This document shows, piece after piece, positions 3,502-38,842 of a stretch of DNA of 41,385 bases (positions within the stretch are counted from its first letter, which is position 1; each line of letters opens with the position of its first letter). The stretch covers positions 1-41,385 of the forward strand of contig CAIUWR010000072.1 in assembly GCA_903902915.1 (NCBI GenBank). The letters run 5' to 3'. A model generated the notes under the pieces. It saw only the letters and a list, made by a program, of their open reading frames with translations. It did not search any database and was not told where the DNA came from. The stretch is from an uncultured Hyphomicrobiales bacterium (GTDB lineage: Bacteria > Pseudomonadota > Alphaproteobacteria > Rhizobiales > Beijerinckiaceae). A program made the position numbers and the translations under genes.

Positions 3502-3766
3502 GGGAGGCTCCTTGTGTTTTGCTGGATTGACCAAAGCAAGGGGTGTGCCGGAGTGAAGTTCGCCGCTTTGCGCAGCAAGCGCCCGCCGCTGCACAAAGCG
3601 TGGGCGAAAACCTTCGGCGCCTGCCTGTCGCGGCGTCTATTGTCGATAACTCCCAACGAATAGGCGGGGCTGATGCTTCCCCGCGCAAGCTTTGGGCGCA
3701 AGGCGCCGCCAAAGAGGCGGGTTGCCTGCAATAGGGCCTTGGCACACCGTTTGCCTTGAGCGGTTC
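3502..3766. promoter_or_regulatory. Divergent intergenic region between SBP operon and hydrolase/UbiD operon
   Basis: 265 bp separating the leftward ABC operon from the rightward hydrolase-UbiD operon. Promoters for both should lie here by position. I could not identify a convincing -35/-10 pair or a strong dyad, so the call rests on gene arrangement only. Confidence 0.4.
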
Positions 3767-4624
3767 ATGACACTCAAACCGGTAAGCGCCATGAATTGGG
3801 GCAAGATGTCGCGTGAAGCGCGGGACGCCGCCTATAACAATGCGGCGGGCGTCGCCAACAGCGCGGTGCTGAACGCCGAACGCGCCAAGGCTTCGGAGGC
3901 CTGGCGCCTCGCCCACCCGGCAAGGCTCGACTTGCCCTATGGGCCGAAGGAGAGATGCAAATGGGACCTCTATCCAGCGGCTGATCCCAAGGCGCCCTGT
4001 CTCGTGTTCCTGCATGGCGGCTACTGGATCATGAACGGGCGCGAGAACTTCGCCTGCATCGCCGAAGGCTTCGCGCCCCATGGTTGGTCCGTCGCCATGC
4101 CCGGCTATTCGCTTGCACCGGGCGCGACCCTTGCAGAGATCTGCGCGGAGATTCGCCTCGCGCTGGACTGGCTCGTGGCGGAAGGTCCCGCCCATGGCAT
4201 AGAGGGCCAGATCATTCTGTCAGGCTGGTCCGCGGGCGCGCATATGACGGCGCTGATGCTTGACCATCCCGCCGTTGTCGCGGGACTCGCCGTCTCCGGC
4301 CTGTATGAACTTGGCCCGCTGCGCGATACCTACCTTCAGGAAAAGCTCTCGCTCAGCGAGGACGAGATCGCCTCGCTCTCGCCGCTTCGGCTGCCCGCCA
4401 CGCACAAGCCTTTGCTAATCTCCTATGGAACCGCAGAACTCCCGGTCTTCGTGCAGGAGTCCCGGGCGCTGCATGAGCAACGGGCGGCCGCCCATGCGCC
4501 AGGTTCCCTCGCTCCGGTCGCAGCCGCCGATCACTTCACCATTCTTTACGAACTACGCAATCCCGGCAGCCAACTCATTCAGCAAACGCTGCTGCTCTCA
4601 AGCGCATCCAGCCAAACGCGCTGA
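3767..4624 (+). CDS. Alpha/beta hydrolase, kynurenine-formamidase/esterase-like (HGGYW)
   Basis: Cytoplasmic alpha/beta hydrolase of 285 residues. The oxyanion motif HGGYW is at 83-87, the nucleophile elbow GWSAGAH places Ser155, GTAELPVF supplies a likely acid at Glu224, and AADHF supplies His256; the triad is complete. The N-terminal pattern MSREARDAAYNN resembles arylformamidase-like hydrolases. The second in-frame ATG at 3791 (277 residues) is an equally good start; neither has a strong ribosome site. It is the first gene of the rightward operon with two UbiD genes and a small protein. Kynurenine formamidase activity is not implied by the context; cleavage of an amide or ester precursor of the UbiD substrate is an inference. 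Confidence 0.85.
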   Translation: MTLKPVSAMNWGKMSREARDAAYNNAAGVANSAVLNAERAKASEAWRLAHPARLDLPYGPKERCKWDLYPAADPKAPCLVFLHGGYWIMNGRENFACIAEGFAPHGWSVAMPGYSLAPGATLAEICAEIRLALDWLVAEGPAHGIEGQIILSGWSAGAHMTALMLDHPAVVAGLAVSGLYELGPLRDTYLQEKLSLSEDEIASLSPLRLPATHKPLLISYGTAELPVFVQESRALHEQRAAAHAPGSLAPVAAADHFTILYELRNPGSQLIQQTLLLSSASSQTR

Positions 4625-4670
4625 TCTCCCTGATCGGCATCACCACATATGAAAACCAGCGAGAAGAACA

Positions 4671-6077
4671 ATGACGGGTTTTGACGCCTCCTCCGACAGC
4701 CAGTCCCTGCGCGGATTTCTGTCCATGGTGGAAAGCAAGTTTCCTTCGGAAATGCTGCGGGTAAACCAGCCTGTCTCTCGCGAGTTCGACACGACGGCCA
4801 TCGTCTTCGAACTGGAGCGCGCGGGCAAGAGCCCCGTGGTCGTGTTCGAGAATGTCGGCGGTTCCACGACACCTGTCGTCACCAACATCGCCGCCAACCG
4901 CGCGATCCTGGCCGCCTGCATCGGCGTCGGCGTGGATGATCTGCCCACCGCCTTCCGCGAACGTTGCCAGAAGCCCATCCCCTCCCAGCTTGTCGAACAC
5001 GCCGCATGGAACGAGGTGGTCATCGAGGGCGATGATGTGGATCTCACCACGCTTCCCATTCCCTCGCAATTCTCAGTGGACGCTGCGCCCTATATCACGG
5101 CGGGGCAGATCACCGCGCGCGATCCGGTCTCAGGGGTCGATACCTCGGGCTTTCATCGCCTGATGCTGAAGGGTCGCAATCGCCTTGGCGTCTCGCTGCA
5201 CTCGCGCCGCCGCATGTACGAGTTCCACCGTCGCGCCGAAGAGCGCGGCGAGAACCTGCCAGCGGCCATCACGCTGGGCGTGCATCCCCTGCACTACATG
5301 GGGTCGATGACCTATGCCTATGCGCCGTCGGTGCGCAAGTTCGACATCATCGGCGGGCTGTTTCAGGAGCCCTATCGGCTCGCGGCTTGCGGCGACAAGG
5401 GGCTGCAGGTGCCCGCAGGCGCCGAGATCGTCATCGAAGGCGAGATTCTCGCGGGGGTGCGCGAGCCCGAAGGCCCCTTCGGCGAATTCACCGGCTACGC
5501 CTCGCACCGCAGCACCCAGAACGTCTTTGTGGCGCATCGCGTGCGCATGCGGCGCGACGCTTATTTTCACAGCGTCGTCTCCGGCATGTCCAAGGATCAT
5601 ATCCTGATCTCCTGCATCACCCGCGAGGGCGAGATCCTGAACGCCTTGAAGCGCAATCTGCCCAATGTGATCGCGGTGCATGTGCCTCACACCACCTGCG
5701 GCGCCTTCATGGCTATCATCTCCATGAAGAAGACCGCTGCGGGCGAGCCGCAGATGGCCATCATGAGCGCGCTCAGCACTGAACTCTATACGAAATATGT
5801 CATCGTGGTGGACGAGGATGTCGATATCTTCGACATGAACGACGTCATGTGGGCCATCGCCACGCGCGTACATGCGGAAAAAGATGTCGTGATGATTCCG
5901 GGCGTGAAGAGCGCCATCATCGACCCCACCTCAGACCCCAAATTGTTCACGGTAACGAAGATGGGCATCGATGCCACGCGACCTTCGGGCGTCGATTTCG
6001 CCGAGCGTCTGGTTATCCCCGAGGAGCACCGCGCAACAGCGCGCGACATCCTCGCAGCCGCTGGCGTGCAACTGTGA
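4671..6077 (+). CDS. UbiD family decarboxylase (first of a pair)
   Basis: 468-residue UbiD-type decarboxylase, a prenylated-FMN enzyme family acting on (hetero)aromatic or unsaturated acids. The catalytic block EGPFGEF is at 267-273, giving Glu267 and Glu272, and the conserved Arg is Arg163. In the metal/prFMN segment, where most family members read N-x-x-x-Y-R, this protein reads TSGFHR (158-163): Thr158 replaces the metal-ligand Asn, while the downstream His (His177 in SLHSRRR) is present. EIVIEGE, which carries a family Glu ligand, is kept. It starts at ATG 4671, 46 bp after the hydrolase, and is followed by a second, different UbiD gene. Whether it is catalytically independent or half of a heteromer is open. 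Confidence 0.92.
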   Translation: MTGFDASSDSQSLRGFLSMVESKFPSEMLRVNQPVSREFDTTAIVFELERAGKSPVVVFENVGGSTTPVVTNIAANRAILAACIGVGVDDLPTAFRERCQKPIPSQLVEHAAWNEVVIEGDDVDLTTLPIPSQFSVDAAPYITAGQITARDPVSGVDTSGFHRLMLKGRNRLGVSLHSRRRMYEFHRRAEERGENLPAAITLGVHPLHYMGSMTYAYAPSVRKFDIIGGLFQEPYRLAACGDKGLQVPAGAEIVIEGEILAGVREPEGPFGEFTGYASHRSTQNVFVAHRVRMRRDAYFHSVVSGMSKDHILISCITREGEILNALKRNLPNVIAVHVPHTTCGAFMAIISMKKTAAGEPQMAIMSALSTELYTKYVIVVDEDVDIFDMNDVMWAIATRVHAEKDVVMIPGVKSAIIDPTSDPKLFTVTKMGIDATRPSGVDFAERLVIPEEHRATARDILAAAGVQL

Positions 6078-6092
6078 AGCGGAAGATGCAAC

Positions 6093-6098
6093 AGGAGG
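6093..6098 (+). promoter_or_regulatory. Shine-Dalgarno site deciding a GTG start
   Basis: A perfect AGGAGG lies 8 bp before the GTG at 6107. It sits after an in-frame ATG at 6086, so that ATG is unlikely to be the start of the second UbiD protein. Confidence 0.8.
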
Positions 6099-6106
6099 AC
6101 AACAAC

Positions 6107-7468
6107 GTGAGCCCTGTAACGCCCGGCGAGGATTTTCGCGCCATGCTGTCGCGGATGGAGGCGGCTGGACATGTCAAGCGCACCTCCAGGCCCGTCAAGC
6201 CGCAACATTTCAGCGCGCTCTGCACACAGTCGCCCGGCGTCTTTCTGGCGGAGAAGGTCGAGGGCTATGACTTCAGCATGGTCGGCGGCGTCTTCTGGAC
6301 GCGCGCGCGCACCGCAGCCTCCATGGGGTGGCCGGAAGCTGAGCTTGGGCGCAAATTCGCCGCAGGCGTTTCCCGCCCGCTCGCGCCAGTGGAGGTGAGC
6401 GATGCGCCCTGTCAGGAAAATATCGTCACCCATGACGACGTCGACCTCAGCGCGATCCCCATACCCCTGATGCACGAAAAGGACGGCGGCCCCTATCTGT
6501 CGTCCGGCATCGTTTTCGCCGACGAGCCTGGGGTGGGCGTCAATGTAGGCTGCTATCGCCTGATGTATCGCACGCGGCGCGAGATGGCGATTGATCTATT
6601 CACGGCGTCAGATCTGCGGCGCATCTATGGAAAGGCCTTCGAGCAGGGCAAGCCGCTACCCATCGCGGTCGCCTTCGGCGTGCATGCGTTCGAACATATG
6701 GCCGCAGCCTACAAGGCGCCCGCTGGCGTCAACGAAATGGAGATTGCGGGCGGATTGCGCGGCGCGCCCACGCGAATGGTCCGCTGCAAGACCGTGGATC
6801 TGATGGTTCCCGCCGATGCGGAGATGGTGCTGGAAGGCGAACTCCTGCCGAATGGCTGGACCGCTGACGAAGGCCCCTTCGGCGAATTTGCGGGCATGCA
6901 GGGCGACCTCAAACACAATCCCATCTTCCGCGTCACCGCGATCACCCATCGCAATAATCCCATTCTCTACTCGTTGCAGATGCCTTGGGAAAACGACTGG
7001 CTGAACGGCCCTGCGACGGAAGCCGCCTGCATGCGCATCCTCAGCATCGCGGGCATTCAGGTGACCAATGTGCGCGCCACCGAGGGCGGCTGCTGCGGCT
7101 GGTCCATGGTCGTCGCCATTCGCAAACGGGCGGGCGAGGGCAAGAATGTCATTGCTGCGCTGCTGTCTCTGCCTGTCGTCAAACAGGTGATCGTGACCGA
7201 CGACGACATTAACATCTACGATCCCAACGAAGTCGAATGGGCCGTCACCTTCCGCTGTCAGGCCGACAAGGACATCGTCATCCTCTCGGGCATGAAGGCC
7301 AAGCACGTGGACCCCAGCGTGCGGCCCTGGGAGATGAAGCCCGGCGAATTGCCGCTGACTTCCAAATTTGGAATCGACGCCACAATTCCCGAAGGCATTC
7401 CCGCCTTCCGATACGAGCGCATCGCCTCAGCCTATCTGGATCAGGTGCGACTGGAGGATTACATATGA
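6107..7468 (+). CDS. UbiD family decarboxylase (second of a pair)
   Basis: 453-residue UbiD-family protein read from GTG 6107, which has a perfect AGGAGG in front; ATG 6086 would add seven residues. The motif NVGCYR (146-151) supplies the metal-ligand Asn146 and Arg151, EMVLEGEL is present, and EGPFGEF gives Glu255 and Glu260. At the position aligned with the metal-ligand His, however, it reads IDLFTASDLR, so Phe165 replaces His. This is the complement of the first UbiD, which has the His but lacks the Asn. The sequences are clearly distinct, not a recent duplication. Its stop overlaps the start of the 71-aa gene as ATGA. It starts 29 bp after the first UbiD stop. Probable partner of the first UbiD (inference). 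Confidence 0.9.
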   Translation: MSPVTPGEDFRAMLSRMEAAGHVKRTSRPVKPQHFSALCTQSPGVFLAEKVEGYDFSMVGGVFWTRARTAASMGWPEAELGRKFAAGVSRPLAPVEVSDAPCQENIVTHDDVDLSAIPIPLMHEKDGGPYLSSGIVFADEPGVGVNVGCYRLMYRTRREMAIDLFTASDLRRIYGKAFEQGKPLPIAVAFGVHAFEHMAAAYKAPAGVNEMEIAGGLRGAPTRMVRCKTVDLMVPADAEMVLEGELLPNGWTADEGPFGEFAGMQGDLKHNPIFRVTAITHRNNPILYSLQMPWENDWLNGPATEAACMRILSIAGIQVTNVRATEGGCCGWSMVVAIRKRAGEGKNVIAALLSLPVVKQVIVTDDDINIYDPNEVEWAVTFRCQADKDIVILSGMKAKHVDPSVRPWEMKPGELPLTSKFGIDATIPEGIPAFRYERIASAYLDQVRLEDYI

Positions 7469-7680
7469 TCGCAATCACCACAGCCGACCAGACGCTTGTC
7501 GCAGAGATCGAGCGACTGCTCGCTAGCCCCGCGTATTTCAAACAAGTTCTGGATTGCGGCGCTGATCATGCCTATCGCGAGGTGCTCATTGCCTGGAGTG
7601 ACGTGCGCGAAAAGCACGCATTGCAACGTGACGAGTTAGGGCGATACTTTCTCGTCGCTTGTCAAACTGAACCAGTCTGA
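7465..7680 (+). CDS. 71-residue protein coupled to UbiD pair, unknown family
   Basis: Small acidic-to-neutral cytoplasmic protein of 71 residues that I do not recognise. The start is well supported: a GGAGG at 7453-7457 and an ATGA overlap with the second UbiD stop. It has no signal peptide, membrane segment or CxxC zinc motif, so it does not look like the small VdcD/ShdD-type subunits of other hydroxyarylic acid decarboxylases. Predicted features are an N-terminal helix (ADQTLVAEIERLLAS) and a core VLDCGADHAYREVLIAWSD. A frame-broken relative of the same core occurs at 29052-29173. Tight coupling suggests a subunit or assembly factor for the UbiD pair; this is inference. Confidence 0.82.
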   Translation: MIAITTADQTLVAEIERLLASPAYFKQVLDCGADHAYREVLIAWSDVREKHALQRDELGRYFLVACQTEPV

Positions 7681-7707: not shown

Positions 7708-8682
7708 TCATGACTTCCCGCCAGCCAGCAAACGGTAGTGCGTGATACGTCCTATTGTGTTCATCAGGATCTGAGCCGCGAGGATCGCAGTGCTACCTGA
7801 ATGATCGTACTCCGGCGCGACCTCGACGAGGTCCAGGCCAATGATCTGACCTCGTTTGGCCAAACCATCTATGAGTTCCAGGACCTCATAATAGAGGAAC
7901 CCACCATGGCTGGGCGTCCCGGTGCCAGGGGCGATTGAAGGGTCGAATGCGTCTATGTCGATGGTGAGGTAATAGCGCACACCAGCTGGAATGCGTTCCA
8001 GCATGGCGTCGATACCCATCTTCCGCACCTGGCGAACCGACTGGATATCGGAAGCCATGTTGCGCGCATCTACATATCCCTCGCGGGCCGTCGAAGACAC
8101 GTTGCGGATCCCGATCTGGCTGAGCCCGGTCACGTAGGTTTTCTCTGCCGCGCGACGCATTGGATTGCCGTGGCCAAAACGAACGCCATGTCGTTCATCG
8201 ACAAAGTCCAGATGTGCGTCAATTTGGACGAGGTGAAACGGCCCCTGTTTGTCAAAAGCGTTAATACAGGGAATATTGACGGAATGATCGCCGCCAATGA
8301 CGACCGGCAAGGCGCCGGCGGCCAGTATTTTACGCACTCCATATTCGATACTGGCATGGCTTTGCATTGTGTCAGTATGGATAATGTCAGCGTCGCCAAG
8401 GTCAACGATAGTCACTTTCCCGTGCTCGAGATAGACCACATCGTCCTCGTGATCATAGGCGCCTGAATGTCCGAACGCAAAGAGCGTCGACGCCTCACGA
8501 ATGGCCCGCGGCCCCATCCTTGCACCTGACCGCCATTGCGAACCAAAATCATACGGAGCGCCCAAGATGGCGACATCCGCTTTTAAGGAATCCCAATCCG
8601 CTACATATGGATATTTTCCAAATGTACAAATTCCGACGAAGGGCAGGTTCAGACGCCCCTTTTCATAGCCATGATTGGTCAT
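7708..8682 (-). CDS. Arginase/agmatinase-family ureohydrolase
   Basis: 324-residue metallohydrolase of the ureohydrolase superfamily, which releases urea from guanidino compounds using a dinuclear Mn2+ centre. The metal ligands are visible: GGDHS (His133), DAHLD (Asp155, His157, Asp159) and DIDAFDPSIAPGTGTP (Asp242, Asp244). Start ATG 8682 is preferred because AAGGA precedes it at normal spacing; an upstream start would add 25 basic residues unlike the family. The gene converges on the 71-aa gene with a 27-bp gap and stands alone. Agmatinase is the commonest annotation for this layout, but guanidinobutyrase, guanidinopropionase or another guanidine-releasing activity cannot be separated by eye. 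Confidence 0.9.
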   Translation of the reverse strand: MTNHGYEKGRLNLPFVGICTFGKYPYVADWDSLKADVAILGAPYDFGSQWRSGARMGPRAIREASTLFAFGHSGAYDHEDDVVYLEHGKVTIVDLGDADIIHTDTMQSHASIEYGVRKILAAGALPVVIGGDHSVNIPCINAFDKQGPFHLVQIDAHLDFVDERHGVRFGHGNPMRRAAEKTYVTGLSQIGIRNVSSTAREGYVDARNMASDIQSVRQVRKMGIDAMLERIPAGVRYYLTIDIDAFDPSIAPGTGTPSHGGFLYYEVLELIDGLAKRGQIIGLDLVEVAPEYDHSGSTAILAAQILMNTIGRITHYRLLAGGKS

Positions 8683-8977
8683 TTGTCTTTTCCTTGAAAT
8701 TCCGGGGCCTTTCGTTCGGATAGTGGCAACAACCGAGCGCTGAAGGCTTGTTTTCAAAAGTCTCGCATGGCTTATTTTCTACTGCAATGCCGTTCAGCGC
8801 AATTTATTCTGCTTGGTCCCTCCGCCCTGCAAGTTCAGTTCAAGCCCCCTTCCCTCCGCCGATTTTTATTCCTAACTTCCACAATCTCCGCTGAAACTTT
8901 TATATTCCAGGCTTCGGAAAAAGGCATTTTCTAAGCCAAAATTCGACTGGACTCCGCCCCCACGCATACGCAAGGCT

Positions 8978-9316
8978 ATGGTCGCTCTGGCACAAGGAGA
9001 TAGCCGTCCACTTCAACGGATTAAAGTTGGCTCAGTGCTGGTGAGGGAGCACGAAGGTAAGTTGCATGAGGCCTATGTCGTTCCCGATGGATTTAGCTGG
9101 CAAGGAAAGACCTATGCAAGCCTGTCGACCATCGCCCGTAAGATCACTGGCACGAAGTGGAATGGACCGCGATTCTTCGGGTTGCGGGATAACCGAGCTG
9201 ATCCGGCCGAGACTGAAAAGCCTTCCTTGGATCGAACTGTCGCTCAGAAAGGCGTTCAAGCACTGTCATCGCTCCGGCCCCGCCCGTCAAAAGCATCCAT
9301 TAGGGGCACGAAATGA
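8978..9316 (+). CDS. DUF2924 domain protein, N-terminally short
   Basis: 112-residue protein carrying the C-terminal DUF2924 core: GSVLVREHEGKLHEAYVV, then GFSWQGKTYASLSTIA and ITGTKWNGPRFFGL. Such proteins usually sit directly before large serine recombinases, as here: its TGA overlaps the recombinase ATG as ATGA. Family members are commonly about 150 residues with an additional N-terminal helical part. Here the frame is open back to about 8876 but offers no ATG before 8978, so the gene is probably 5'-truncated or uses a non-standard upstream start. Function unknown; probably an accessory of the recombinase (inference from linkage). Confidence 0.8.
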   Translation: MVALAQGDSRPLQRIKVGSVLVREHEGKLHEAYVVPDGFSWQGKTYASLSTIARKITGTKWNGPRFFGLRDNRADPAETEKPSLDRTVAQKGVQALSSLRPRPSKASIRGTK

Positions 9317-10866
9317 AGCCACCCATTATGAAGCCGATGCGCTACGCCATCTACACACGCAAGTCCACCGATCATAACCTCGATCTCGCCTTCAACTCCC
9401 TCGACGCTCAACGCGAGGCCTGCGAGGCCTATATCAAGAGCCAGGCCCATGAGGGCTGGACGCTCATTCCCGGTCACTTCGATGATGGAGCCTTCTCGGG
9501 CGCCTCCCTCGTCAGGCCAGCCCTTCAATCGCTTCTGGACCAAGTGCGCGCCCGAAAGATCGACATCATCGTCGTCTACAAGGTCGACCGCCTCACCCGT
9601 TCGCTGGCCGACTTCGCGAAACTGGTCCAACTTTTCGACGCACATGACGTCTCTTTCGTATCCGTCACCCAATCCTTCAACACGACTTCCAGCATGGGAC
9701 GACTGACCCTGAATGTGCTCCTTTCCTTCGCTCAGTTCGAACGAGAAGTCATTGGCGAGCGCGTCAGGGACAAGATCGCGGCGTCCAAGCGCCGAGGCAT
9801 TTGGGTGGGCGGCCCCGTCCCGCTTGGCTACCGAAGCGTCGACAAGAAGCTTGAGATCGTCCCGGAAGAAGCCGCACTCGTGCGCAAGATCTTCGCCGAC
9901 TACCTGCGACTGGGATCGATTGCCGAACTGGCTTCTTCTCTTGAACAGGAGGGGATCAAGCCGCGACCAAGGCTCCTTTCAAATGGCAGGACCATCGCCG
10001 CAGACCGCTTTATGGTGGGACCACTGGCGCATCTGCTGAAGAACCGGTTCTACATCGGCGATGTCGTCTTTCAGGGAGAAACACATCAAGGCGAGCACCA
10101 ACCCATTCTGGATCGCGACCTGTTCGATGCCGTACAAGCGCAACTGGCGAATGTGGCCGTGAAGCGCAGGCTCGCCAGATCGCCATCTCCCGCCATGCTC
10201 ACTGGCCTGATCTTCGATGATCGCGGCAATCCCATGACCCCAAGCCACGCGAGCAAGAAGGGGGTCCGCTACCGGTATTACGTATCTCACGCACTGCTGC
10301 AGGGGCGCAAAAACGCCGCCGGATCCATCGCCCGCGTGTCCGCGCCGGACATGGAAAGTCTGGTCATCGAGGCAGTTCGCGAACAGTTCCCTTCAGATCT
10401 GGAGAACTCTGATCACGACCTATTCCGGAAACATGTCCGGCGGATCGTCGTTCATAGACAGCTGTTGGAGATCTTCACGGGTTCGGACGACCCAAACCAG
10501 CTTACTCGACTGACAACCCCCTTCATTCCAAATGGTCCCAGACGCAAGGGGATTACAAGCTCGCCAAGCGGGCACGAATTCATCGACGCTGAAACCCGCG
10601 ACATCCTGCTCAAGGCTATTAGCCGATCACATCGCTGGATGCGATCCATCCTAGACGGCAAGATGACCTCCTTCGACGAGATCGCTGCTGCTGAAAATCT
10701 TGGCGAACGGTACGTGAGGCGTCTCGCTGTATTGGCATACCTCTCGCCAAAGATCATCCAGGCGATCGCCGATGGCGTCGCGCCGAACGGCATGAGTGTA
10801 TCGGGCCTGACGATGGCCTTGCCTCATGCTTGGGCCGAGCAGGAAGCTATGCTCGGGCTGAACTGA
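9313..10866 (+). CDS. Large serine recombinase (resolvase/recombinase family)
   Basis: 517-residue site-specific recombinase. The resolvase domain starts YAIYTRKST, placing the catalytic serine at Ser18, followed by SLDAQREACEAYI, GASLVRPAL and YKVDRLTRSLADF, all conserved catalytic-domain segments. FEREVIGERVRDK is the long E helix, and the following RRGIWVGGPVPLGY and KNRFYIGDVVFQGETH belong to the recombinase and zinc-ribbon-type C-terminal region. Length is full for the family. Translationally coupled to the DUF2924 gene. A frame-broken partial paralogue with about 90% visible identity lies at 29200-29885. It should integrate/excise the element it belongs to; att sites are not established. 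Confidence 0.93.
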   Translation: MKPPIMKPMRYAIYTRKSTDHNLDLAFNSLDAQREACEAYIKSQAHEGWTLIPGHFDDGAFSGASLVRPALQSLLDQVRARKIDIIVVYKVDRLTRSLADFAKLVQLFDAHDVSFVSVTQSFNTTSSMGRLTLNVLLSFAQFEREVIGERVRDKIAASKRRGIWVGGPVPLGYRSVDKKLEIVPEEAALVRKIFADYLRLGSIAELASSLEQEGIKPRPRLLSNGRTIAADRFMVGPLAHLLKNRFYIGDVVFQGETHQGEHQPILDRDLFDAVQAQLANVAVKRRLARSPSPAMLTGLIFDDRGNPMTPSHASKKGVRYRYYVSHALLQGRKNAAGSIARVSAPDMESLVIEAVREQFPSDLENSDHDLFRKHVRRIVVHRQLLEIFTGSDDPNQLTRLTTPFIPNGPRRKGITSSPSGHEFIDAETRDILLKAISRSHRWMRSILDGKMTSFDEIAAAENLGERYVRRLAVLAYLSPKIIQAIADGVAPNGMSVSGLTMALPHAWAEQEAMLGLN

Positions 10867-22834: not shown

Positions 22835-23108
22835 GCGTCGTCATAACAACCAACCTGAGCTTCAGCGAATGGGCCTGGGTCTTCGGCGACGCAAAGATAA
22901 CGAAGCGCTCCTCGACCGCCTAACTCATCACTGCCACATCCTTGAAACCGGTATCGACAGCTTCCGTTCCAAGGCGAGCACCGACACGGCCACCACTAAA
23001 ACCCGGAAGGAGAAATCGAATGCCTTGACTTAAAACTGACCTAAGGAACATAAAAAAGGCGGGTCACTTCTCAGTGAAAATTCCGGGTCAGTTCTTCGTG
23101 AAAATCTA
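22835..23108 (+). mobile_element. IS21-family right-end remnant A (istB 3' fragment plus terminus)
   Basis: VVITTNLSFSEWAWVFGDAKIT starting near 22838, then after a one-base loss near 22903 ALLDRLTHHCHILETG..SF, is the C-terminal end of an IstB-like ATP-binding protein, stop at 23033. The IS terminus follows: two tandem gggtcannttcnnngtgaaaat units ending gaaaatctaca at 23108. Neither istA nor the istB N-terminus is present. It begins 8 bp after the DUF5681 stop. A second copy of the same end is at 38674-38842. Confidence 0.8.
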
Positions 23109-29199: not shown

Positions 29200-29885
29200 A
29201 TCGACAGGCTCACTCGTTCGCTTGCCGACTTCGCCAAACTTGTCGAACTCTTCGACGCCCATGACGTCTCTTTGTATCAGTCACCCAATCGTTCAACACG
29301 ACGTCAAGGATGGGGAGACTTACCCTGAATGTCCTGCTATCCTTTACCCAATTCGAGCGTGAGGTCATTGGCGAGCGCGTCAGGGACAAGATCGCAGCAT
29401 CAAAGCGCCGGGGCATTTGGGTGGGTGGCCCTGTCCCGCTTGGTTACCGCAGCGTCGACAAGAAGCTTGAGACTGTGCCGGAGGACGCTGCGCTCGTTCG
29501 CAAGATCTTCGCTGACCACCTTCGGCTAGGATCTATTGGAGAACTGGCATCCTCTCTTGAGCAGGAGGGGATCAAGCCGCGTCCGAGGCTGCTTGCAAAT
29601 GGCACAACCATTGCCGCAGACCGCTTTATGGTCGGCCCCTTGGCGCATCTGCTGAAGAACCGCTTCTACATCGGCGATGTAGTCTTTCAGGGGGAAACGC
29701 ATCAAAGCGAGCACCAACCCATTCTGGATCGCGACCTGTTCGATGCCGTACAAGCGCAACTGGCGGATGTGGCCGTGAAGCGCAGGCTCGCCAGATCGCC
29801 ATCTCCGGCCATGCTGACTGGCCTGATCTTCGATGATCGCGGCAATCCAATGACACCAAGCCACGCGAACAAGAAGGGGGTTCGC
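29200..29885 (+). pseudogene. Serine recombinase fragment, both ends missing
   Basis: From 29200 the translation reads IDRLTRSLADFAKLVELFDA, then shifts frame after a one-base loss near 29270, and from 29310 resumes MGRLTLNVLLSFTQFEREVI through RRGIWVGGPVPLGY, KNRFYIGDVVFQGETH and MTPSHANKKGVR at 29885. It corresponds to the region from about residue 91 to 316 of the recombinase at 9313-10866, with mostly synonymous differences. The catalytic serine part and the C-terminal DNA-binding third are absent. At its 3' end it runs in frame into a binding-protein C-terminus. Confidence 0.85.
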
Positions 29886-30620
29886 GTGATGCGCACCATC
29901 TCCACAACCAAGCCGCCTCTGATCTCGGTCGGCACCATGTATCAGGCCTCAACCTTCCATATGGTGAGCCTGAAGAGCAAACCGATCAGCAAGGCGGAGG
30001 ATCTCAAGGACAAGATCGTGGGCATTGTCTCGGTCGGAGGCACGACGGAGGTCTATCTCGATCTCGATCTCATTCTAGCCAAGGGCGGCATTGCGAAGCA
30101 TTCCGTGAAGCACGAAGTGACGGGCAACTCCCCCGGCGCCCTGCAGATGGTGAAGCAGGGCCGCGTGGATTGCTTCATCGCCTCCATTCAGGTGGTTGTT
30201 GCTCTGCAGCAGCGCATGAAGGAGGAGGTGGAGGTCTGGTCCACCGACCGCTACGCCCCCATGCCCGACCAGTGCTGTGTTTCGAGCCGCGACATGATCA
30301 ATGTCAAATCCGAGGTTTTCACTAGGGCCCTGCGCGCCATACGGGCCTCGGCGCAGGACATCATGATGCAACCGCTCCCGCCCATCTTCGAACGCGCGAC
30401 GAAGGATTACGAGATTCCCAACATCCGCAACAGCAATGAGCTTGTTGAGGTCGAGGAGGCCTCGGCGGATCGTCTGCGGCTGTCGGAAGGGCGCGAAAAC
30501 CTGCTGCGCAATGTGCCGCATCTCTGGACATCCGGCGTCGACGCCCTGCGCGACAACAAGATCGCCGATCCCGGCGAACCAGAGACGCTGTATACAAACC
30601 AGTTCGTAGACACTGGGTAG
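29886..30620 (+). pseudogene. NMT1-type substrate-binding protein, 5'-truncated, fused in frame to recombinase fragment
   Basis: After GVR of the recombinase fragment the same frame continues VMRTISTTKPPLISVGTMYQ, FHMVSLKSKPISKAEDLKDK, QMVKQGRVDCFIAS and ends ETLYTNQFVDTG. This is the C-terminal two thirds of an NMT1/SsuA-type periplasmic receptor. Signal peptide and N-terminal lobe start are lost. The open frame from 29310 therefore encodes a 436-residue chimera with no export signal, so a transport role is impossible as is. Codon composition matches neighbouring host genes. A perfect 7-bp-arm hairpin overlaps the stop. Confidence 0.8.
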
Positions 30621-32811: not shown

Positions 32812-34239
32812 CTAGCCAGACAGCGCCGCGCCCCATTTTCGTTCAATCTCCAGCGCCTCTTCGATGGAAAGAGCCGAGCTTGGCGGGAACTCCTTGCGCC
32901 AGGCGAAGGGTTTGCAAGCGTTGATGATCATCTTGGAATGCGAAGTCGTCCCACGCGCCTTGTCTTGCGGGGGAATGCGCGGATCCAGCCCCGAACTCCA
33001 GGCCTCGCGGATGATGTCGACGGACTCGCAGGGCTCCGAGCGCGTCGTGACGGCCCACATCACATCCGCCAGATTCGACGGGTCGATATCTTCATCAACA
33101 ATCACCACCAAACGGCCCATGTAGCTGTTGGCGGCTGCGATGAGGCCTGCGCGCTTGGCATGGCCAGCGTAACGCTGCTCTAACGAGACCACCGTCATTA
33201 GCTGCGACACATGCTGCCAGCAGCCCACGACATCGGTTACGCCGCCCGCTTCAAGATCTCCCCAGATGCTGGCGGCGCGGAAGGGCAAGCCGAAGTGGAA
33301 GCGCGGCGGCTTCATGGGCGGCGAGCCGAGCAACACCGGATCATTGCGATAATGCACCGCCTCCACATCCATCACGGGCGCGGGGCGCGCATCGGCGGCG
33401 TAATAGCCGGTGAATTCGCCGAACGGCCCCTCGGGCAGCGTCATCTGCTCGGGGGGCAGAAGGTGGCCTTCGAGGATGATTTCTGCGCGCGCAGGCAATG
33501 GCAGGCCGGTGAGCGGACCATTATAAATCTCGATTGGGCGGCCCTTGATGGCACCAGCGAAGGCATATTCCGATCTGCCTTCGGGCAGATATTCGAAGCC
33601 CGCGATAAACAGCGCCGGGTCTTCGCCATTAACCACCGCGACGGGGCATGATTGGCCGCGATCCCAATATTTGCGAGCGATCATGTTGCCGTGGCGCCCG
33701 CTGTGATCGAACTGGATCGTGACACGCCTAGGGCCATGCACCTGCACCCGGTAGATGGAGGCGTTGATCCAGCCCGTGTCAGGATCGCGCATGATGACAA
33801 GGCTGCCGGAACCTATATAGGGGCCGCCGTCTTTCTTGTGCCAATGGGGCGTGGGAAATATCGACAAATCGACATCGGCGCCGCGCTGGCTGTTCTGCAT
33901 GTAGAGCGCTTCGCTCACCTCGACCGGATCGATGGGCGTCAGTTTGGAGCGTTTCGCTTTCCACCCTTTCAGGGCTTCAAGCGGGGAAAGCTTGGGGTCG
34001 ATGCCAAGGGCTAACGCCGCGCGGCGCGCCTGCACCGTCGCATTGGTGAAAATGCGAAAGCCCTTGGGGAAGCCCGGCATCTCGTCGAACAACAACGCCG
34101 GCCCCTCCGTTCGGCCTGCGGCGACCTCGGTGATGGCGCCGATTTCGATATGAGGGTCTGCCCCGCGGATATGCCGCAGGGCGCCCATTTGCTCGACCTT
34201 AGCGATGAAAGCACGAAGATCATCATAGTCGGCGGGCAT
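32812..34239 (-). CDS. UbiD family decarboxylase (third copy, in TRAP operon)
   Basis: 475-residue UbiD-family prFMN-dependent decarboxylase with all main residues: NASIYR gives Asn159 and Arg164, FDHSGRHGN gives His179, AEIILEG is present, and EGPFGEF gives Glu270 and Glu275. In contrast to the pair at 4671-7468, neither the metal Asn nor the His is replaced. HKKDGGPYIGSGS matches the family's substrate-side loop. ATG 34239 has AAAGGAG upstream. It is inserted between TRAP P and Q genes, so its substrate is very probably what the transporter brings in. No UbiX is in the window; the prFMN cofactor must come from elsewhere. Confidence 0.93.
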   Translation of the reverse strand: MPADYDDLRAFIAKVEQMGALRHIRGADPHIEIGAITEVAAGRTEGPALLFDEMPGFPKGFRIFTNATVQARRAALALGIDPKLSPLEALKGWKAKRSKLTPIDPVEVSEALYMQNSQRGADVDLSIFPTPHWHKKDGGPYIGSGSLVIMRDPDTGWINASIYRVQVHGPRRVTIQFDHSGRHGNMIARKYWDRGQSCPVAVVNGEDPALFIAGFEYLPEGRSEYAFAGAIKGRPIEIYNGPLTGLPLPARAEIILEGHLLPPEQMTLPEGPFGEFTGYYAADARPAPVMDVEAVHYRNDPVLLGSPPMKPPRFHFGLPFRAASIWGDLEAGGVTDVVGCWQHVSQLMTVVSLEQRYAGHAKRAGLIAAANSYMGRLVVIVDEDIDPSNLADVMWAVTTRSEPCESVDIIREAWSSGLDPRIPPQDKARGTTSHSKMIINACKPFAWRKEFPPSSALSIEEALEIERKWGAALSG

Positions 34240-38673: not shown

Positions 38674-38842
38674 CGCATAACTCACCACTGCCACATCCTT
38701 GAAACCGGTATCGACAGCTTCCGTTTCAAGGCGAGCACTGACGCCGCCACCACTAAAAACCAGAAGGCAAAATCGAAGGCCTTGACTTAAACCTGACCTA
38801 AGGAACATAAAAGGGCGGGTCACTTCTCAGTGAAAATCTACA
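38674..38842 (+). mobile_element. IS21-family right-end remnant B
   Basis: Close copy of remnant A: the istB C-terminal codons from the LTHHCHILETG region, a stop, then aacataaa.gggcgggtcac and terminus gtgaaaatctaca at 38842. It is shorter on the left (no VVITTNLSF part) and has only one of the two terminal gggtca units, as expected from recombination between them. Orientation is the same as copy A. No transposase gene. Its last bases form the 3' end of the neighbouring phosphatase-family reading frame. Confidence 0.8.

Follow-up and report, generated by a model that had tools for sequence, protein, structure and literature searches.

Decarboxylases of the UbiD family share one fold and a catalytic motif, RXnEX4(E/D), described as such in excerpts of two papers (PMC10176493, PMC5818171). 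In the members that have been studied, the phosphate of the cofactor, prenylated flavin mononucleotide (prFMN), is held by Mn2+ and K+ according to parts of PMC10176493 and PMC7976604; the part of the latter also records that the activity of PA0254 peaked with Mn2+ and K+ together, and a section of PMC10865409 calls Mn2+ required for prFMN binding. The metal site is regarded as necessary for binding of the cofactor. In a small group of bacterial proteins all three metal ligands are replaced. One of these proteins is encoded in the window analysed here, a stretch of 41,385 nucleotides from an uncultured Hyphomicrobiales bacterium of the Beijerinckiaceae (contig CAIUWR010000072.1, assembly GCA_903902915.1). 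The window carries two adjacent UbiD-family genes, UbiD1 and UbiD2, whose products have the UbiD fold and the RXnEX4(E/D) motif in common with Fdc1, Escherichia coli UbiD, AroY and PA0254/HudA, all of them Mn2+/K+ prFMN enzymes. UbiD1 belongs to a distinct clade that retains the fold and the Arg-Glu-Glu triad and has Thr, Arg and Lys (T/R/K), invariant in the clade, in the columns of the Mn2+ ligands. The view somewhat favoured here, from sequence comparison, is that UbiD1 would be a metal-free, prFMN-dependent variant with Arg and Lys in the place of Mn2+ and K+, beside a separate enzyme made up of UbiD2 and a small protein and perhaps acting in the same pathway.

The two genes lie head to tail on the plus strand (UbiD1, 4671..6077, 468 amino acids; UbiD2, 6107..7468, 453 amino acids), as a preliminary description of this DNA had it. 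UbiD2 has a GTG start, eight bases past AGGAGG (6093..6098), its likely ribosome-binding site. The products of both, and UbiD3 as well, exceed the cut-offs of PF20695, PF01977 and PF20696, the N, central and C domains of UbiD. The catalytic motif is R163/E267/E272 in UbiD1 and R151/E255/E260 in UbiD2, and the preliminary description was right that the Arg and both glutamates of EGPFGE are retained in each protein; in UbiD1 the invariant Arg163 is encoded at 5157..5159 and EGPFGE, Glu267 to Glu272, at 5469..5486. The membership of UbiD1 in the family rests on these domains and the motif, and its ligand columns make it a variant.

The best solved-structure match of both proteins is HmfF (PDB 6h6v, 6h6x), a UbiD-class furan-2,5-dicarboxylate decarboxylase. 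The ligand columns of HmfF hold Asn, His and Glu, the Mn2+ ligands expected of the family, whereas UbiD1 has Thr158 (5142..5144), Arg181 (5211..5213) and Lys223 (5337..5339), and UbiD2 has Asn146 (6542..6544), Asp169 in the His column (6611..6613) and Glu210 (6734..6736). The columns were placed by HMMER alignments to both HmfF structures, by MAFFT alignments with relatives and by a survey of 156 rows, all of which agree. The survey started from 213 open reading frames (ORFs), of which 158 were left after removal of those at least 95% identical and 156 had more than 250 residues; duplicates were counted once (L197 and L168 are L034, and L172 is L146, genome G304 being the same as G611). The spacing in Fdc1 is reproduced in UbiD1: R163-5=158, R163+18=181 and E267-44=223 correspond to R173-5, R173+18 and E277-44, R173 and E277 being given for Fdc1 in an excerpt of PMC10176493. 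In AlphaFold models (mean predicted local distance difference test score 93.4 for UbiD1 and 90.3 for UbiD2) UbiD1 has helices that start at Arg181 and Lys223, and those of UbiD2 start at the matching residues, Asp169 and Glu210; the UbiD2 model begins at 6110, so its own numbering is one lower.

Since the HMMER and MAFFT alignments and the helix starts in both models agree, the true His column is that of Arg181 and Asp169. The preliminary description had placed the His column at His177 of UbiD1 (5199..5201) and at Phe165 of UbiD2, both of which are four residues ahead of the column. His177, in 'SLHS', has a counterpart in four of the five sister-clade proteins (L012, L135, L039 and L142), all with a normal ligand His four residues on; L012 reads SLHSRGH, in which both the equivalent of His177 and the genuine ligand can be seen, and the fifth, L193, has neither. 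Thr158 within TSGFHR and Asn146 within NVGCYR had been read correctly, and the third UbiD, at 32812, does have Asn and His, and Glu as well. The third ligand, Glu, had been overlooked; it is Lys in UbiD1 and still Glu in UbiD2. The earlier statement that each member of the pair lacks a different ligand is not supported: UbiD1 is without all three and UbiD2 has a usable N/D/E set, with Asp in the His column as in many UbiD proteins, and the two sites are therefore not complementary. The suggestion of altered cofactor sites is supported for UbiD1 alone, and there in all three ligand columns.

The substitutions of UbiD1 are not due to chance, as Thr158, Arg181 and Lys223 are found in 25 of 25 orthologues, together with Arg163, Glu267 and Glu272. 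The 25 genes comprise 21 loci, the window, genome G193 and two further genomes, with duplicates removed. Among the best 80 matches listed, with one genome per species, the 21 loci are 66-81% identical to UbiD1 and are followed by a gap down to 40%. Within the order of the window the gene occurs in 3 of 297 genomes, that of the window included; a fourth match, in G261, has normal ligands. A quick tree and a column test were made with 121 rows, the 32 rows of the E. coli UbiD type (from L044-L098) and three odd rows (L132_2181, L182 and L183) having been omitted. In this tree the 21 non-redundant T/R/K rows form one clade (Shimodaira-Hasegawa-like approximate likelihood ratio 100, stem 0.68). 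Most of its hosts are Alphaproteobacteria; the rest are metagenome-assembled genomes, one from the Burkholderiaceae, one from the Nitrospinota and two labelled simply 'Proteobacteria' and 'bacterium'. A thinned set of 100 other UbiD proteins has 34 columns with a conservation of 85% or more, and the clade matches 32 of these; it departs at 158, where 99 of the 100 have Asn, and at 223, where 98 have Glu. Neither Arg in the His column nor Lys in the Glu column was found in any of the other 135 survey rows. Neighbouring columns are altered too, namely D157 (R in the sisters), R222 (D in the sisters) and H208. Outside this clade, the UbiD proteins of L041 and L042 (about 8001-9380) have His in the Glu column, which makes the ligand set N/H/H, and DGPFGE in place of EGPFGE; theirs is a further altered metal site, rich in histidine.

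Arg181 and Lys223 sit in the opening turns of the corresponding helices, which suggests that the positive charge is supplied by the protein. UbiD1 would still bind prFMN, but the phosphate of the cofactor would be neutralised by the Arg181 guanidinium and the Lys223 amine, together with the adjacent Arg222, instead of by Mn2+ and K+, so that the holo-enzyme would need no divalent metal. In this reading UbiD2, which lies in another clade and has a usable N/D/E metal site, is a separate enzyme. A more tentative proposal, for which we would claim somewhat less, is that the clade is a natural metal-free branch of UbiD, in which the Mn2+ and K+ that anchor the prFMN phosphate have been replaced by Arg181 and Lys223, with Arg222, and that UbiD1 may be a working, manganese-independent decarboxylase. 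If so, the clade would provide a UbiD enzyme independent of manganese and would show which tasks the metal truly performs: cofactor anchoring, oxidative maturation, or both. A limited literature search found no published report of a UbiD protein without the metal ligands.

Several observations weigh against this proposal. Both the loss of the metal and the substrate of UbiD1 are inferred. The Fdc1 metal ligands are presumably N168, H191 and E233, of which the spacing and the conservation alone were checked here, and the AlphaFold models were used for fold and secondary structure. The Asn column by itself is not decisive: in the alignments AroY has Asp and PA0254/HudA has Ser in it, and yet PA0254 binds Mn2+ and K+, according to an excerpt of PMC7976604. 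Both of these enzymes, unlike UbiD1, retain His and Glu. The argument is carried by Arg181 and, most of all, by Lys223. In a control with 45 overlapping clades, a 15-row clade was also found to swap two near-invariant columns (G257 and P269). The number of swaps is not unique; what is peculiar to the T/R/K clade, on the alignments at hand, is that both swaps fall in metal-ligand columns and that one of them is Glu to Lys. Of the T/R/K genomes searched for UbiX, 3 of 13 hold two UbiX genes. Finally, D157 and H208 are invariant in the clade (21 of 21 rows), occur in 2% and 1%, respectively, of the other 135 rows and in none of the five sisters, so that the metal site may have been relocated.

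Such a relocated site is the first alternative to be considered. UbiD1 might bind a divalent metal through ligands specific to its clade, such as His208, Asp157 or His186, while Arg181 and Lys223 do something else, such as holding the substrate. The distribution of D157 and H208, together with the presence of H186 in 20 of the 21 rows, speaks for it, and the Mn2+ kept by PA0254 with Ser in the Asn column indicates that a change there is tolerated. A cation would, however, be repelled by the two positively charged side chains that now occupy ligand columns, and H177 and H162 are common to proteins with a normal site. We regard this alternative as unlikely, though it deserves serious consideration.

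It is also conceivable that UbiD1 has dropped prFMN, uses plain FMN or no flavin, and has become a pseudoenzyme or an enzyme put to another use. This is improbable in view of the invariant catalytic triad and of the genomes in which the T/R/K protein is the sole UbiD found. There are five of these, G034 and G193 (both 100% complete), G300, G302 and G303, and a cross-check with UbiD2 as the query returned the T/R/K gene itself as the single match in each. UbiX lies 0.6-5 kb from the T/R/K gene in all five and is the only UbiX found in four of them, where no other client of the cofactor is visible. A UbiX gene was present in 13 of 13 T/R/K genomes searched (13 of the 25 known). The catalytic triad and the neighbouring UbiX argue that UbiD1 probably uses prFMN. 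As no other UbiD was found in the five genomes, the T/R/K protein seems to need no UbiD partner. The source genome of the window has eight UbiD genes and one UbiX, the latter on a different contig.

UbiD2 is ordinary at its metal site and is expected to bind a metal, because the His column often holds Asp, Asn or Gln: these residues are present in 35 of the 135 non-T/R/K rows (17, 14 and 4, respectively), UbiD2 included. The 35 rows include the whole of its own 25-row clade and L003 and L004, further UbiD proteins of the same genome. Two more Asp rows (L117 and L119) were excluded from the count, as a His stands just ahead, and 56 rows with Gly in the column were left uncounted, of which 45 read HRGG, with His two residues earlier as in E. 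coli UbiD, and the other 11 may truly lack the His. In the quick tree UbiD1 and UbiD2 are in different well-supported clades, and a recent tandem duplication was rejected for that reason. The 15-row clade of the control, with L017, L085 and L147-L154, consists of UbiD2 relatives that read EGRFGE, the near-invariant P269 being replaced by Arg and G257 by Ala.

Orthologues of UbiD2 were found at 8 loci, with 52-76% identity, and in 8 of 8 the gene is followed by a relative of a 71-residue ORF, which in the window (7465..7680, plus strand) overlaps the UbiD2 stop by four bases (ATGA). The ORF has no match in Pfam or NCBIfam, and no name was found for its relatives. Its product is probably UbiD2's own small partner. 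The arrangement resembles that of the vanillate decarboxylase VdcCD, in which the UbiD-type VdcC likewise pairs with a small protein, VdcD. VdcD binds zinc via two CXXC motifs (an excerpt of PMC8379154), whereas the product of the 71-residue ORF contains two cysteines, which do not form a CXXC, and in this respect differs from VdcD. UbiD1 and UbiD2 also fall short of the VdcC cut-off (NF041204, 650 bits), with 294.1 and 242.7 bits. UbiD2 adjoins UbiD1 at 4 of the 8 loci (the window, L019, L033 and L038), is near it at a fifth (L021) and is apart from it at three. In genomes G304, G522 and G688 the genes are widely separated or lie on separate contigs; in G304, a single contig, the orthologues are about 0.84 Mb from each other. 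A T/R/K gene is present in each of the 8 genomes that carry a UbiD2 orthologue. One of them is that of the window, four (L019, L021, L033 and L038) were found via the T/R/K gene and three, of one genus, came from a UbiD2 search of 385 genomes, and the co-occurrence is suggestive only.

Two UbiD-family proteins can form one enzyme, as in phenylphosphate carboxylase, whose alpha and beta subunits are encoded in one operon. UbiD1 and UbiD2 fall far below the cut-offs of TIGR02723 and TIGR02724 (564.6 and 468.95 bits), with at most 161.2 and 137.5 bits; the beta subunit had 0 matches in 398 genomes of the phylum, a result that is uninformative, as the control genomes gave none either. The obligate heteromer with mutually complementing sites put forward in the preliminary description has in its favour the existence of such two-UbiD complexes, the same-strand adjacency at four UbiD2 loci with proximity at a fifth, and the co-occurrence, but it is very improbable and is rejected in the face of the genomes in which no second UbiD was found, the distant genes, the different clades and the unequal ligand sets. 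The idea of one catalytic and one structural subunit is not supported either, given those genomes, the distant genes and the different clades.

UbiD1 and UbiD2 probably catalyse different steps of one catabolic pathway for an imported carboxylate, without a shared active site. The neighbouring genes, some of them named by eye, include TAXI/TRAP-like, ABC and tripartite-like transporters, hydrolases, amidohydrolases, a cyclase, AllG and a Mo-hydroxylase, which suggest that a small, possibly nitrogen-containing, carboxylate is taken up and degraded. The comparison of neighbourhoods gave no name for the substrate, the neighbours being too variable. In the window an alpha/beta hydrolase gene (3692..4624, plus strand) precedes UbiD1, and one is also found beside the pair in L019. 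In L033, AllG genes (oxamate carbamoyltransferase subunit; 3804-5084 and 8392-9657) flank UbiD1-UbiD2 and hint at a carbamoyl-containing intermediate.

The genomes of L034 (G304), L033 (G311) and L035 (G312), of about 4 Mb, have 37, 34 and 36 UbiD-family matches, respectively. Such numbers are unusual and suggest that these organisms specialise in aromatic or recalcitrant carboxylates. The window itself contains two copies of a site-specific recombinase (9584-10269 and 29201-29885), 88.6% identical over 686 bases. The second copy is truncated, and its frame continues into what appears, by eye, to be the latter half of a transporter-binding protein (ORF 29310-30620). The window also has a repeat of 165 bases at 22917-23081 and 38674-38837, with 91.5% identity between the copies.
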